Assembly (NCBI GenBank): GCA_017307375.1
Contig: JAFKFH010000003.1
Span: 372,001-436,000, forward strand
Source: Alphaproteobacteria bacterium
Lineage (GTDB): Bacteria > Pseudomonadota > Alphaproteobacteria > Ferrovibrionales > Ferrovibrionaceae
Length of the DNA: 64,000 bases
Reading direction: 5' to 3'
The notes below the pieces were generated by a model. It saw only the letters and a program-made list of their open reading frames with translations, was not told where the DNA came from and made no database searches. A program made the position numbers and the translations under genes. Of this stretch, positions 14,099 through 21,055 are shown piece by piece (within the stretch, counting starts at the first letter, position 1; the number at the start of each line of letters is the position of its first letter).

Positions 14099-14112
14099 AT
14101 AGCAGTCGCTAT
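14099..14112. promoter_or_regulatory. Possible TetR operator overlapping the tetR start codon
   Basis: ATAGC / GCTAT arms with a 4-base spacer span the ATG of the TetR gene at 14111. A related TAGCGAC word occurs further up at 14036, and GGCGCCTT is repeated at about 14020 and 14067 in the same divergent gap (13972-14110). The gap probably holds both promoters. The assignment is by position only. Confidence 0.35.
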
Positions 14113-14728
14113 GAAAACAGCCGTCCAGGAACCCCGTACCCGAGGCCGCCCGCGTTCGTTCGACCGCGATGCCGCGCTCGAGCGCGCGATGCTGCTGTTC
14201 TGGCGGCGCGGCTACGAAGCGACCTCGATCAGCGACCTGACCGCCGAAATGGGCATCACGCCCCCGAGCCTCTATGCCGCCTTCGGCGACAAGCAGCGGC
14301 TGTTCCACGAAGCGGTCCAGCGCTATCTCGACCAGGGTGCGGGCTGCACCGATGCGATCTTCGCCGAGGAGGCTACGGCGCGCGGCGCCGTCGAGCGCCT
14401 GCTGCGCTCGGCCGCCGAGGGCCTGACCCGCAGCGACCGGCCGTCGGGCTGCATGATCGTGACCGCGGCGACCAATTGCTGCCCGGAATCGTCCGATGTC
14501 CAGGCCGGTCTCGCCCGGCTCCGCGCCGACCAGGCCGACCGGCTGCGCGGCCGCATCGAACAGGGTGTCGCCGCCGGCGAACTGCCTGCCGATACCGATG
14601 TGGCGGGCCTTGCCACCTTCTATACCACCGTGATCCAGGGCATGACCGTGCAGGCGCGCGATGGCGCCGGCCGCGACACCCTGCTTGCCGCCGCTGCAGC
14701 GGCGATGCGGGCCTGGCCCGCCGACTGA
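14111..14728 (+). CDS. TetR-family transcriptional regulator
   Basis: 205 aa. The N-terminal HTH is typical: GRPRSFDRDAALERAMLLF, then ATSISDLTAEMGI and PPSLYAAFGDKQRLFHEAV. Regulators of this subtype control nearby oxidoreductases or small stress genes. It is divergent from the NAD(P)-binding gene and followed after 49 bases by the DUF1993 gene on the same strand; either could be the target. Confidence 0.9.
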   Translation: MKTAVQEPRTRGRPRSFDRDAALERAMLLFWRRGYEATSISDLTAEMGITPPSLYAAFGDKQRLFHEAVQRYLDQGAGCTDAIFAEEATARGAVERLLRSAAEGLTRSDRPSGCMIVTAATNCCPESSDVQAGLARLRADQADRLRGRIEQGVAAGELPADTDVAGLATFYTTVIQGMTVQARDGAGRDTLLAAAAAAMRAWPAD

Positions 14729-16458: not shown

Positions 16459-17368
16459 AATTGGCCGCGGCGATCTGGATGGAATCGCCATCTTTCTGCG
16501 GGTCGCCAGCCGCCGCAGCTTCACGGCTGCAGCAATCGATCTCGGCATTTCGCCCTCGGCGGTCAGCCAGGCGGTGCGCGCGCTCGAGGCCCGGCTTGGT
16601 GTCGCCTTGCTGACACGCACCACCCGCGACGTCGCCCCCACCGAAGCGGGCGAGCGTTTCCTGGCCCAGGCGATGCCGGCGGCGGCGCAATTGCAGGAGG
16701 CTATTGTCGCAGCCCGTCAGCTCGGTACCGAACCGTCCGGCCTGTTGCGCCTCAACGTGCCGCGTGTCGTGCTCGACTGGCTGCTGGCGCCGATCCTCGA
16801 TCGTTTTCATGCCCGATATCCGACGGTCCAGGTCGAGGTGCATGTCGACGACCGCCTCGGCAATATCGTCGCCGACGGCTTCGACGCCGGCATCCGGCTC
16901 GGCGAATATCTGGAGGCCGACATGACGGCGGTGCGTCTGACGCGACCGTTCCGCACCGCAGTCGTGGCAAGTCCCGCCTATCTCGGTCTCCATGGCCGGC
17001 CGCAACACCCGGAAGACTTGCGCCGGCATGCCTGCATCAATTTCCGTCAGAGCGCACGGGGCACGCTCTACCGGTGGGAGTTTGCCGAAGACGGCCGTGA
17101 CTTCGACGTTGCGGTCAAGGGGCCGGTGATCACCAACGATGCCGGATATTATGTCGACGCCGCACGGCGGGGCCTGGGCCTTGCCTACAGCCTCGAACCG
17201 ATCGTTACCCCCCTTGTCGCGGCCGGGAAGCTCGAAGCGGTACTGCAGCGCTTCTGCCCCGAAACCCCAGGCATGTTCCTCTACTTTCCGGCCAGGTCTC
17301 AGGCCCTGCCGAAGTTGCGCGCTTTCGTCGACACGGCGCGCGAGCTCAGGCACGAAAGCGGCGGATGA
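16442..17368 (+). CDS. LysR-family transcriptional regulator
   Basis: 308 aa. The N-terminal winged HTH reads IAIFLRVASRRSFTAAAIDL and ISPSAVSQAVRALEARLGV; a periplasmic-binding-like sensor domain follows (about residues 95-300). It resembles regulators beside reductases and quinone genes. The gene is divergent from the aldo/keto reductase with an 81-base gap. The start codon lies inside a palindrome (see the site at 16442). Confidence 0.92.
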   Translation: MKSDFIIGRGDLDGIAIFLRVASRRSFTAAAIDLGISPSAVSQAVRALEARLGVALLTRTTRDVAPTEAGERFLAQAMPAAAQLQEAIVAARQLGTEPSGLLRLNVPRVVLDWLLAPILDRFHARYPTVQVEVHVDDRLGNIVADGFDAGIRLGEYLEADMTAVRLTRPFRTAVVASPAYLGLHGRPQHPEDLRRHACINFRQSARGTLYRWEFAEDGRDFDVAVKGPVITNDAGYYVDAARRGLGLAYSLEPIVTPLVAAGKLEAVLQRFCPETPGMFLYFPARSQALPKLRAFVDTARELRHESGG

Positions 17369-17407
17369 GCGGGCTTGAACGCCGGCCGACAATGGCGTCG
17401 TGGCACG

Positions 17408-19114
17408 CTAGGATTCCTTGCCCTCAGCCGTCGTCGTCGCCCAGGCCTTCAGCCGCTCCGGTTCCAGCAGCACCGCCGGCACCGCCGTGCCGCGGCCGCG
17501 CAGCTGGATCACCTCGCGGCGCATGCCCTCGCAGGCGAAGCCGGCGGCCTCGGTCAGCGCGTTGGAGGCGATGACCGCGACGCCGAATTCCTTGGTTGCC
17601 GTCTCCAGCCGCGAGGCGGTGTTGACCGTATCGCCGATCGCGGTCGCGCCGGCGGCCGGGCCGTAGCCCATCACGCCGACGATGGCGCGGCCGTAATGCA
17701 GGCCGATGCCCATGCGCAGCGGCTGGTCGAGGTCGGGACGCAATTCCTCGTTGAGCCGGTCGAGCGCCTCGAGCATCGCCGCCGCCGCCCTGAGCGCGGC
17801 CGCCGCCGCGTCGGCCTGCTCGGCCGTGCCGTCGCCGAACAGGGCCATGATGCCGTCGCCCAGGAACTTGTCGACGCGGCCGCCGGCCTGCTCGATCGCC
17901 TGGGTCATCGCCCGGAAATAGCGGTTCAGCAGGTAGACGACGTCGAAGGGCAGACGGCTCTCGGCCAGGCCGGTGAAGCCGCGCAGGTCGGCGAACAGCA
18001 CGGCGATCCGCCGCTCGCGCCCCGCGGCGCGCGCCGCATCGACCAGCGCGGCGTCGGGTTCGATCGTCGCCGGCAGCAGCGGGGCGAGTCGCAGGTCGGC
18101 GGTCGGGCGGATCTGGCAGGCCAGCCGGATACCCGGGGGCGCGCCGATGCGGGCCAGCACCTTCGCCTCCTCGGGCTCCGGCGCGGCGAGGCTCTCAAGC
18201 CCCTCGTCGATGCGCACCCGGCAGGTCGAGCAGCGGCCGCGTCCGCCGCAGATCGCGGCATGGGGCACGCCGGCAAGGCGGCTCGCCTCCAGCACGGTGA
18301 CCGTGCCGCCGGCGATCAGGGCGCGACGCCCTTCCGGATAGTGGATAACGATCTGGCCGAGCCGCCGCCGGCGCCATTCCGAACCGAGGCGGAAGGCGAG
18401 CACCAGGCCGAGTGCCGCGGCCATCAGCACGAAGCCGCGTTCCTGGGCCGCCACCGCCCAGGCCGAGGCCTGGTCGATATTGGGACCGAGGCGGTCGCGC
18501 AGCCCGTCGAGGAAGGCCTGCGACTGGACCAGATGGTCGATCTCGTGTCCCGCGGTGACGAAGCCGCACAGCGACACCACCGGGATCAGCAGCGCGGCGC
18601 CGCCCAGCGCCGGCCGCAGCCGCCGGTAGCCGTCGCGGAAGCGCAGCCAGACATGCAGCCCGACGCAGCCATGCGCCCAGGCCAGCACCAGCGCGATCGA
18701 CTGCAGCCAGGCCAGATGCGGCTTCAGCACCCAGATGCTCATCAATACGGGGCCGTAGCCGGTACGGACCCCGAACGGCGCGACGCCGACGGTGCCGAGC
18801 ACATGCAGTATCAGCAAGGGCGGCAGCGCGAAGCCCGACAGCAGGCGGAAGATTTCCAGCGCGCCGAGGCCGCGCGGTGCCCGCAGCGTCGCCAGCGCGT
18901 AGAGGGCGTTGGCGACATGCGCGGCCAGCGCGCCATAGAGCAGGAACTGCACCGGCGGCAGCCGCCAGAACCACAGGAACCGGTTTCCGCCGGCCAGCAG
19001 CGCCTCGTAGGAGACAAGCCCGGCGGCATGGTTGAGCAGGTGGCTCAAGACATAGGCGAACAGGATCAGCCCGGAGGCCAGCCGAGTCCTGGTCCGCAGC
19101 CGTTCCCAGTTCAT
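17408..19114 (-). CDS. Membrane adenylate cyclase with diheme-like anchor, 2Fe-2S ferredoxin and class III catalytic domain
   Basis: 568 aa in three parts. Residues 1-245 are a six-helix anchor with helix histidines (LSHLLNHAAG, LILHVLG, AWAHGCVGLHVWL) as in succinate-dehydrogenase-type cytochrome b and the anchor of Sinorhizobium CyaC. Residues about 255-345 are a ferredoxin domain: CGGRGRCSTC (C-x5-C-x2-C) plus RLACQ. Residues about 365-540 are a class III cyclase: metal Asp in FADLRGFTG and FLGDGIMALFG, the Lys before it (VDKFLGDG), and DTVNTASRLE. These residues favour ATP, so cAMP is the expected product. Anchor and ferredoxin suggest control by quinone or redox state. It lies 61 bases downstream of adenosine kinase. 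Confidence 0.85.
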   Translation of the reverse strand: MNWERLRTRTRLASGLILFAYVLSHLLNHAAGLVSYEALLAGGNRFLWFWRLPPVQFLLYGALAAHVANALYALATLRAPRGLGALEIFRLLSGFALPPLLILHVLGTVGVAPFGVRTGYGPVLMSIWVLKPHLAWLQSIALVLAWAHGCVGLHVWLRFRDGYRRLRPALGGAALLIPVVSLCGFVTAGHEIDHLVQSQAFLDGLRDRLGPNIDQASAWAVAAQERGFVLMAAALGLVLAFRLGSEWRRRRLGQIVIHYPEGRRALIAGGTVTVLEASRLAGVPHAAICGGRGRCSTCRVRIDEGLESLAAPEPEEAKVLARIGAPPGIRLACQIRPTADLRLAPLLPATIEPDAALVDAARAAGRERRIAVLFADLRGFTGLAESRLPFDVVYLLNRYFRAMTQAIEQAGGRVDKFLGDGIMALFGDGTAEQADAAAAALRAAAAMLEALDRLNEELRPDLDQPLRMGIGLHYGRAIVGVMGYGPAAGATAIGDTVNTASRLETATKEFGVAVIASNALTEAAGFACEGMRREVIQLRGRGTAVPAVLLEPERLKAWATTTAEGKES

Positions 19115-19175
19115 CGGCGCATCCGCCGCGCCCGGAACGACCGTGTGCTGTTCAAGGCGTGATCCCGCGCCGGGG

Positions 19176-20168
19176 TCAGAGACCGGCCTTGGCCACCAGG
19201 TCCTTCAGCGAGGTTTCGGGGCGGGCGCCGACATGGCTGATGATTTCGGCCGCGGCGATCGAGGCGATGCGGGCGGCATCGACCAGGCTGCGCCCATGGG
19301 TCAGGCCGAACAGGAAACCGGCGGCATAGAGATCGCCGGCCCCGGTGGTGTCGACCAGATGGTCGACCGGGTGCACCGGCACGATATGGGTTTCGTCGCC
19401 CTGGACGATCACCGAGCCCTTTTCCGACCGGGTCAGGGCGCCCAGCTTGCCCTCGGCGCGGAAGGCCGCCACCGCTTCGTCGAAGCTTGCCGCCTGATAG
19501 AGCGAGACGATCTCGTCCTCGTTGGCGAACAGGATGTCGACGTCGCGGCGCACGAGGTCGCGGAACTCGTCGCGATAGCGGCCGACGCAGAACGGGTCCG
19601 ACAGCGACAGGGCGGTCTTGCGGCCGGCGCCATGGGCCAGGGCCATCGCCTTGCGGAAGGCTTCCTTGGCCAGCGGCGGATCCCACAGATAACCTTCCAT
19701 GTAGGTCACCTGGGCGGCCGCGACCGTGGCCGGGTCGATGTCGTCGGGGCCGAGCCCGACGCAGGCGCCGAGATAGGTGTTCATCGTGCGCTGGGCGTCC
19801 GGCGTGACGATGATCAGGCTGCGTGCGGTCTTGGCCCCCTCGGTCGCGGCGCGGGTATCGAAGGTCACGCCGAGCGCGCGGATCTCGTGGGCGAAGATGC
19901 CGCCCAGCTCGTCGTCGCGCACCTTGCCGAAATAGGCGGCCGACCCGCCGAGCGAGGCCACCCCGGCGATGGTGTTGCCGGCCGACCCGCCCGAACAGAC
20001 CAGGCCCGGACCCATCGCCGCATAGAGGCTTTCGGCGCGGTCCTCGTCGATCAGCGTCATGGTCCCGCGATTGAGGCCATGGGCGGCGATGAAGCCTTCC
20101 TCCTCGCGCGAGATCACGTCGACGATGGCGTTGCCGATGCCGAGGACATCGAAGGCGGTCTTGGTCAT
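19176..20168 (-). CDS. Adenosine kinase / PfkB-family sugar kinase
   Basis: 330 aa ribokinase-fold kinase. The N-terminal DVLGIGNAIVDVIS and SGGSAGNTIAGVASLGG contact the nucleoside; the C-terminal GAGDLYAAGFLFGLTHG holds the catalytic Asp and anion hole. Closest by pattern to alphaproteobacterial adenosine kinases (adenosine plus ATP to AMP plus ADP). I chose MTKTAFDV as start because the longer frame adds a non-family N-terminus. It is upstream of the cyclase on the same strand and may be co-transcribed. Confidence 0.85.
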   Translation of the reverse strand: MTKTAFDVLGIGNAIVDVISREEEGFIAAHGLNRGTMTLIDEDRAESLYAAMGPGLVCSGGSAGNTIAGVASLGGSAAYFGKVRDDELGGIFAHEIRALGVTFDTRAATEGAKTARSLIIVTPDAQRTMNTYLGACVGLGPDDIDPATVAAAQVTYMEGYLWDPPLAKEAFRKAMALAHGAGRKTALSLSDPFCVGRYRDEFRDLVRRDVDILFANEDEIVSLYQAASFDEAVAAFRAEGKLGALTRSEKGSVIVQGDETHIVPVHPVDHLVDTTGAGDLYAAGFLFGLTHGRSLVDAARIASIAAAEIISHVGARPETSLKDLVAKAGL

Positions 20169-20353
20169 GGGGCAGGCAGGCTCAGCTGTGGTTGCGGGAA
20201 AACCGGCGCAGTATAGGGGGCGCCGGGGGCGCGGCAACCGGGGAATCCTCCGGCTTCGCGGTGCGCACGCGGCTGTGACTTAAATCGGCCCTGCCACAAC
20301 TCCGCCATGATTGGCCGGGAGTCTGGCGGCCGGTTTCGTGTTGTCGGGGGATC

Positions 20354-21055
20354 ATGTTCAAAGCCTTCGTGCTGGGCTTCGACCAGCTCGGCGAGCGGCG
20401 CAGCCGCGGCGTCCTCGTCAAGGCCCTGGGATTGACGCTCGTCCTTTATGTCGTCCTGGCCGTACTGCTCGGCTGGGGCGTCACCCATCTGCCGCGCTTC
20501 GAGGCGGGCTGGGCCAATACGCTGGCCGAGCTGTTCTCGGGCCTCGGCGTGCTGCTCGGCCTGGCGCTGCTGTTCCCAGCGGTCGCCTCGGCCTTCATCG
20601 GCCTGTTCCTCGACGACATCGCCGACGCGGTCGAGCGCCAGCATTATCCGGCCGATCCGCCCGGACGGGCGCTGGCCGCCGGGCCGGCCCTGCTCGGCTC
20701 GCTGCGTTTTCTGCTCGTCATGATCGCGCTGAACCTGCTGGTCCTGCCGCTCTACGTGCTGATGCTGTGGTTCCCGCCGATAAATCTCTTTATATTCTAC
20801 GGCTTGAACGGTTATCTTCTCAGCCGGGAGTATTTCGAACTGGTCGCCTGGCGGCATGTCGACCGGCCCACCGCGCGGAGGCTGCGCAAGCGCAACCAGG
20901 GGCGGCTGTGGCTGGCCGGTGCGGCCATCGCCTTCCTGCTGACGATTCCGGTGATCAGCCTGGCGGCGCCTATCGTGGCCACGGCGGCGATGGTGCATCT
21001 GTTCAAGCGCCTCGCCCGGGTCCCGGGCGCGTCCACCGCCGCGGCGGCGGGCTAG
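20354..21055 (+). CDS. EI24 / CysZ-like membrane protein
   Basis: 233 aa with four or five hydrophobic segments (e.g. ALGLTLVLYVVLAVLLGWGV, FLLVMIALNLLVLPLYVLML, LWLAGAAIAFLLTIPVISLA). FIFYGLNGYLLSREYFELVA matches the conserved middle of the EI24 domain. Bacterial EI24/CysZ proteins are inner-membrane, sometimes sulfate-linked; this lineage has no assigned substrate. GGGGGATC before the ATG fits a ribosome site. Confidence 0.8.
   Translation: MFKAFVLGFDQLGERRSRGVLVKALGLTLVLYVVLAVLLGWGVTHLPRFEAGWANTLAELFSGLGVLLGLALLFPAVASAFIGLFLDDIADAVERQHYPADPPGRALAAGPALLGSLRFLLVMIALNLLVLPLYVLMLWFPPINLFIFYGLNGYLLSREYFELVAWRHVDRPTARRLRKRNQGRLWLAGAAIAFLLTIPVISLAAPIVATAAMVHLFKRLARVPGASTAAAAG

Follow-up and report, generated by a model that had tools for sequence, protein, structure and literature searches.

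A probable CyaC-type class III adenylate cyclase with a putative diheme membrane anchor and a ferredoxin domain in a member of the Ferrovibrionaceae

The gene at 17408-19114 in the window (the whole stretch of 64,000 nucleotides that was analysed, from an alphaproteobacterium of the Ferrovibrionaceae) very probably encodes an adenylate cyclase of the CyaC type, that is, a membrane-bound, redox-regulated and quinone-responsive enzyme of class III (IIIb) with two putative b hemes. We infer the binding of the hemes and of an iron–sulfur cluster, the role of quinone as the signal, the path of the electrons, the direction of the regulation and the use of ATP as the substrate. A sequence-only reading had proposed a three-part protein here, made of an anchor, a ferredoxin and a cyclase, and these parts are indeed found by the open reading frame, by Pfam, by AlphaFold2 and by conservation. 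The features are as follows:

17408..19114, minus strand: predicted CyaC-type adenylate cyclase gene, with an ATG start and 568 amino acids plus the stop (open reading frame, translation, Pfam, AlphaFold2)
18359..19108, minus strand: predicted membrane anchor, residues 3-252, six helices (AlphaFold2 helices, conserved histidines, likeness in fold to the diheme cytochrome b of QFR/SQR)
18101..18316, minus strand: predicted [2Fe-2S] ferredoxin domain, residues 267-338 (Pfam Fer2, E 1.3e-8; PDB matches; four cysteines)
17486..18016, minus strand: class III cyclase catalytic domain, residues 367-543 (Pfam Guanylate_cyc, E 1.3e-18; VIA-align; catalytic residues)
19176..20168, minus strand: adenosine kinase-type PfkB kinase gene, 330 amino acids (PfkB, E 2.6e-44), a possible operon partner

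This architecture has been described before. According to passages of the paper by Beltz et al. (2016, PMC4821796), the 30 class IIIb cyclases of its cluster 1, from alpha- and beta-proteobacteria, carry a ferredoxin domain between the membrane and the catalytic domain and have cytochrome-b-like anchors of six transmembrane segments with four spaced intramembrane histidines, for which two hemes are predicted. For CyaC of Sinorhizobium meliloti (SMc01818), passages of the paper by Klein et al. (2023, PMC10463352) report two heme B groups, a response to quinones, a rise in cAMP through CyaC when the quinone pool is oxidised, and a TetR gene, cycR, that precedes cyaC; the legend of its Fig. 6 marks the protein with a [2Fe-2S] cluster beside the two hemes. 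The idea of the ferredoxin as something added to the CyaC plan, which the sequence-only reading had put forward, is contradicted by that legend and by the passages of PMC4821796, and it was rejected, since the S. meliloti protein is itself marked with the cluster. For the same reasons, namely an architecture published in 2016 and a prototype already marked with hemes and cluster in these sources, the protein is modest as a discovery; it adds a member to a family of cAMP sensors coupled to the respiratory chain that is small and little studied.

The comparison drawn earlier with the quinone-responsive diheme CyaC of Sinorhizobium has held up, on the basis of conservation, fold, alignment and the passages of PMC10463352. 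Compared by description, S. meliloti CyaC resembles the present protein in that a single chain combines a six-helix anchor of the diheme-b type, a [2Fe-2S] cluster and a class III cyclase; the difference lies in the preceding gene, which is cycR in S. meliloti and an adenosine kinase-type gene here. The cluster 1 cyclases, of which Rhodopseudomonas palustris Q132R4 is an example likened by its published description alone, share the four-histidine anchor of six transmembrane segments, the intervening ferredoxin and the class IIIb assignment, and no difference from them was seen in the features tested.

Of the domains of the 568-residue protein, Guanylate_cyc (367-543) and Fer2 (267-338) both scored above the curated cut-offs of Pfam, in the same scan that left the anchor (the first 250 residues) without any Pfam domain; the four NCBIfam matches of the protein, all in the ferredoxin part, were every one under the cut-off. 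The AlphaFold2 model of the whole protein, built with the family alignment, has a mean pLDDT of 90.2. Its least certain part is the linker between the ferredoxin and the cyclase (348-360), where pLDDT is below 50, so the coupling between these two domains is not readable from the model. A plus-strand open reading frame at 17375-19162 (595 amino acids) was considered as a gene and rejected; it was judged to be a by-product of high G+C content opposite a gene with Pfam domains.

Since the matches listed for the whole model by Foldseek (the best 50) were cyclases only, the anchor was folded separately, and residues 1-255 gave a mean pLDDT of 92.6. The AlphaFold2 models predict six long helices (3-33, 53-76, 85-110, 132-157, 163-195 and 213-251), as in the hexahelical anchors of cluster 1. 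The structure prediction for the histidine ligands, which had been suggested as a check, puts H25, H66, H104 and H148 one per helix in helices 1-4, that is, the four histidines expected of a diheme SQR/QFR cytochrome b; H25 and H104 lie toward one end of the bundle and H66 and H148 nearer the opposite end.

When 703 PDB chains were realigned to the anchor model with VIA-align, the top six rows were all cytochrome b subunits of QFR or SQR (Z 14.0 for 1qlb_C, then 13.8, 13.8, 13.6, 12.9 and 11.4; rmsd 3.0-3.7; 181-200 residues aligned), and they were followed by a subunit of mycobacterial succinate dehydrogenase (Z 7.0) and by cytochrome b561 (Z 6.9). Such Z values are near those that helical bundles may attain without kinship, which is why the link between the anchor and QFR rests on the ligand positions and the fold together. 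Foldseek, run with the anchor model alone, gave no match at E <= 0.001; its first row was an unrelated ECF transporter component and its second was the QFR chain 2bs3_C (E 0.73, probability 0.98); of these two fold comparisons, the VIA-align one was clear. Against PDB sequences, the anchor profile had a single match at E <= 10, namely subunit C of Desulfovibrio gigas QFR (5xmj_C), a weak one (E 0.14), in which H25 is aligned with His-C38 and H66 with His-C79. In the solved D. gigas structure, as passages of PMC6175931 describe it, these two residues are ligands of the distal and of the proximal heme, respectively. By helix order rather than by residue alignment, H104 and H148 would correspond to His129 and His166 of D. 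gigas, and the near-invariant H29, which lies one turn from H25 at the putative distal heme, is a candidate for a quinone site. The anchor thus resembles diheme QFR subunit C (Wolinella succinogenes 1qlb_C, D. gigas 5xmj_C) in its predicted fold and in its heme-ligand positions, and differs from it in being fused to a ferredoxin and a cyclase. Moreover, no genes for a flavoprotein and an iron–sulfur subunit, which would accompany the anchor subunit of an SQR or QFR, adjoin it among the six neighbouring genes scanned, and the two Sdh_cyt matches of the genome are located elsewhere, on contig C22.

Between the anchor and the cyclase, the predicted ferredoxin has its four cysteines arranged as C289-x5-C295-x2-C298-x34-C333, a spacing (C-x5-C-x2-C-x34-C) that we take to be of the adrenodoxin type. 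Its PDB matches include terpredoxin, ferredoxin VI, putidaredoxin, an adrenodoxin homolog and the ferredoxin part of NqrF. The likeness to [2Fe-2S] ferredoxins of the adrenodoxin/putidaredoxin type consists of the C-x5-C-x2-C-xn-C pattern and of these sequence matches; in contrast to such proteins, the domain is here fused between an anchor and a cyclase, and the NqrF part matches it as well. The earlier description of this part as adrenodoxin-like, from C-x5-C-x2-C and a distant cysteine, is thus supported by the Fer2 match, by C333 as the distant residue and by the conservation given below, as is that of the anchor as diheme-cytochrome-b-like, for which the QFR/SQR fold and the alignment of H25 and H66 also speak.

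In the catalytic domain, all of the main residues of an adenylate cyclase had been claimed to be present, and inspection of the sequence bears this out: D376, K416, D420, T491, N498 and R502 form a complete set beside the Guanylate_cyc match, as in the class IIIb cyclases of cluster 1. We take D376 and D420 to bind the metal, K416 and T491 to select the base and N498 and R502 to stabilise the transition state, and we take the pair K416/T491 to be of the class IIIb adenylate type. The best fold match found by VIA-align is CyaC of S. platensis (1wc1_C; Z 26.7, rmsd 1.6, 187 residues aligned).

Conservation supports this assignment of the parts. The anchor, used alone as the query, had matches (E <= 0.001) in 28 of 61 related genomes and, within the class, in 112 of 385 genomes, so that it is common there. 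Among 595 candidate stretches from a scan of named genomes with peptide patterns, at least 562 were confirmed, and 80 were retained. Together with the 55 proteins from the anchor searches (query included), these make up 135 family rows; 11 proteins are common to both sets, which leaves 124 distinct rows in 115 clusters at 90% identity. The four heme-type histidines, W146 and the four cysteines are invariant in all 135 rows, and H29 is present in 131. The pattern scan is biased for three of the cysteines, since CGG[RQ]GRCST was among the two patterns used; the anchor searches use neither the ferredoxin nor the cyclase part and hence have no such bias, and the four histidines and four cysteines are found in all 55 proteins of the anchor searches as well as in all 80 of the pattern scan. 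Mean column identity in a 72-row family alignment is 51%, and the conservation of these histidines and cysteines, as judged from sequences, exceeds chance. It also makes a possible role of the cluster as a signal carrier from heme to cyclase testable by point mutants.

Relatives in Rhizobium, Phyllobacterium and Agrobacterium match over nearly the full length, and the whole protein has matches in 443 plasmid records, 163 of which contain a single place that spans 80% or more of it. No place in phage records reaches 80% coverage of the query, and the best five of eight rows there match the cyclase domain.

Among the members with all six catalytic columns, the set is complete in 47 of 52 found by the anchor and in 76 of 80 found by the pattern scan. 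Three rows (L024, L052 and L056) come from short sequences at stretch edges and lack some of these columns; the other 132 of the 135 have the cyclase part. Nine members (L032, L034, L035, L037, L063, L087, L109, L114 and L129) deviate at K416, T491 or N498, with L032, L109 and L114 reading Q/T/H, and all nine retain the four heme-type histidines and the four cysteines. To judge from these residues, they may be cyclases of lost or changed activity whose redox modules are intact.

In the mechanism that we propose, the anchor would hold two b hemes in the manner of diheme fumarate reductases, a distal one on the periplasmic side bound by H25 and H104 and a proximal one on the cytoplasmic side bound by H66 and H148. 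These hemes would exchange electrons with the quinone pool. Next in line as a redox centre would be the [2Fe-2S] domain, which follows the last membrane helix and precedes the catalytic domain. The oxidation state of the cluster would then set the shape or the dimer geometry of the catalytic domain, such that an oxidised quinone pool would lead to higher cAMP, by analogy with S. meliloti CyaC. Profile searches of the genome (7.54 Mb) gave 16 class III cyclase domains and 88 TetR_N matches, as well as seven cNMP-binding domains, which means that possible cAMP receptors are available. A more specific version, to which we give limited credence, is that the cluster is an obligatory relay: quinol electrons would pass through both hemes to the ferredoxin, the charge state of the cluster rather than the conformation of the hemes would switch the cyclase and, in lineages with an adjoining adenosine kinase gene, the two genes would connect the salvage of adenylate with redox signalling from respiration.

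Another possibility, which we consider conceivable though rather doubtful, is that the ferredoxin acts in the cytosol as a sensor in its own right: the loss or oxidation of the cluster under oxidative stress, oxygen or iron shortage would control the cyclase, and the hemes would be a separate quinone input or just stabilisers of the anchor. This overlaps with the explanation preferred here, since the family and the parts are alike and the electron path is what differs. The cluster domain stands directly before the catalytic domain and might gate it alone, the low-confidence linker shows no rigid coupling and all four cysteines are invariant; however, the ligands of the anchor are just as invariant. 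Wissig et al. are moreover said to have found, in 2019, that the mutation of an anchor histidine in a described relative abolished both heme and cyclase activity, which counts against a sensor that works without the anchor. The converse idea, that the anchor is a degenerate cytochrome-b fold without heme and that the protein is an ordinary membrane-anchored cyclase, seems to us very improbable. It could appeal to the marginal sequence likeness to the solved QFR; against it, four histidines of the ligand type are kept in every family row at the mean column identity given above, and a relative binds two hemes according to passages of PMC10463352.

The catalytic end of the protein invites two further readings, both of which we consider very unlikely. 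One is that the protein is mainly an electron-transfer module, in which a different protein receives the quinol electrons from the ferredoxin, with a secondary role for the cyclase. The members that deviate catalytically (5 of 52 found by the anchor and 4 of 80 others) could be taken in its favour, since their intact histidines and cysteines show that the redox half can persist when catalytic residues change; yet the catalytic set is complete in the protein of the window, and the rows in which part of the cyclase is missing are the three short ones at stretch edges. The other reading is that the product is cGMP rather than cAMP, given that 2w01, titled guanylyl cyclase Cya2 in the fold library, is another close match of the catalytic domain (E 2.1e-26 by sequence, Z 24.5 by fold). 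This is countered by the pair K416/T491, if it is, as we assume, typical of class IIIb adenylate cyclases. Passages of PMC4821796 also give the name of class IIIb adenylate cyclases to the described cyclases with a ferredoxin.

A PfkB kinase gene lies 61 bp upstream of the cyclase gene on the same strand, and the closest PDB entry to its product is 3ubo, titled 'adenosine kinase' (E 1.9e-111). In 14 of the 80 loci from the pattern scan, the two genes again stand in this order on one strand, with 27-154 bp between them; in one locus (L094), the kinase gene is 1.4 kb downstream of the cyclase gene. By coordinate comparison, the adjacency occurs in at least 19 of the 112 cyclase-bearing genomes, in nine families and with 20-141 bases between the matches; the two counts overlap, as some loci come from the same genomes. 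The CysZ-like and bactofilin genes farther upstream are also conserved (14 and 8 of the 80 loci), so that inherited gene order is an alternative to a functional linkage of kinase and cyclase. A literature search found no paper that joins an adenylate cyclase and an adenosine kinase in an alphaproteobacterial operon with cAMP. Scans of 17200-20500 gave two promoter sites versus 0.3 expected, located ahead of the kinase gene and within the cyclase gene, respectively, and one terminator versus 1.2 expected, within the cyclase gene; these results are evidence neither for nor against an operon.

The six neighbouring genes scanned with Pfam are those of the PfkB kinase, LysR, TetR, aldo/keto reductase, CysZ/EI24 and bactofilin. 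The arrangement of the S. meliloti CyaC-CycR-Clr complex, with a TetR gene directly before cyaC, is not found among them: a cycR-like TetR gene is absent from that place, which the PfkB kinase gene occupies, and the nearest TetR gene in the window (14111-14728) is on the opposite side, beyond the LysR and aldo/keto reductase genes. A home-made TetR profile, which recovered 29 of 30 test loci, had a match in 3 of the 80 loci, and in two of these, L078 and L084, both from Ferrovibrio, the TetR gene is directly upstream on the same strand, like cycR before S. meliloti cyaC. Their proteins are L017 and L018 of the anchor searches, from genomes (G011 and G012) of the window's own family, and the genome of the window is thus probably a member of the Ferrovibrio family with a different upstream neighbour. 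In five further loci (L104, L127, L134, L137 and L139), a second class III cyclase domain, with 27-29% identity to that of the query, lies directly upstream on the same strand.
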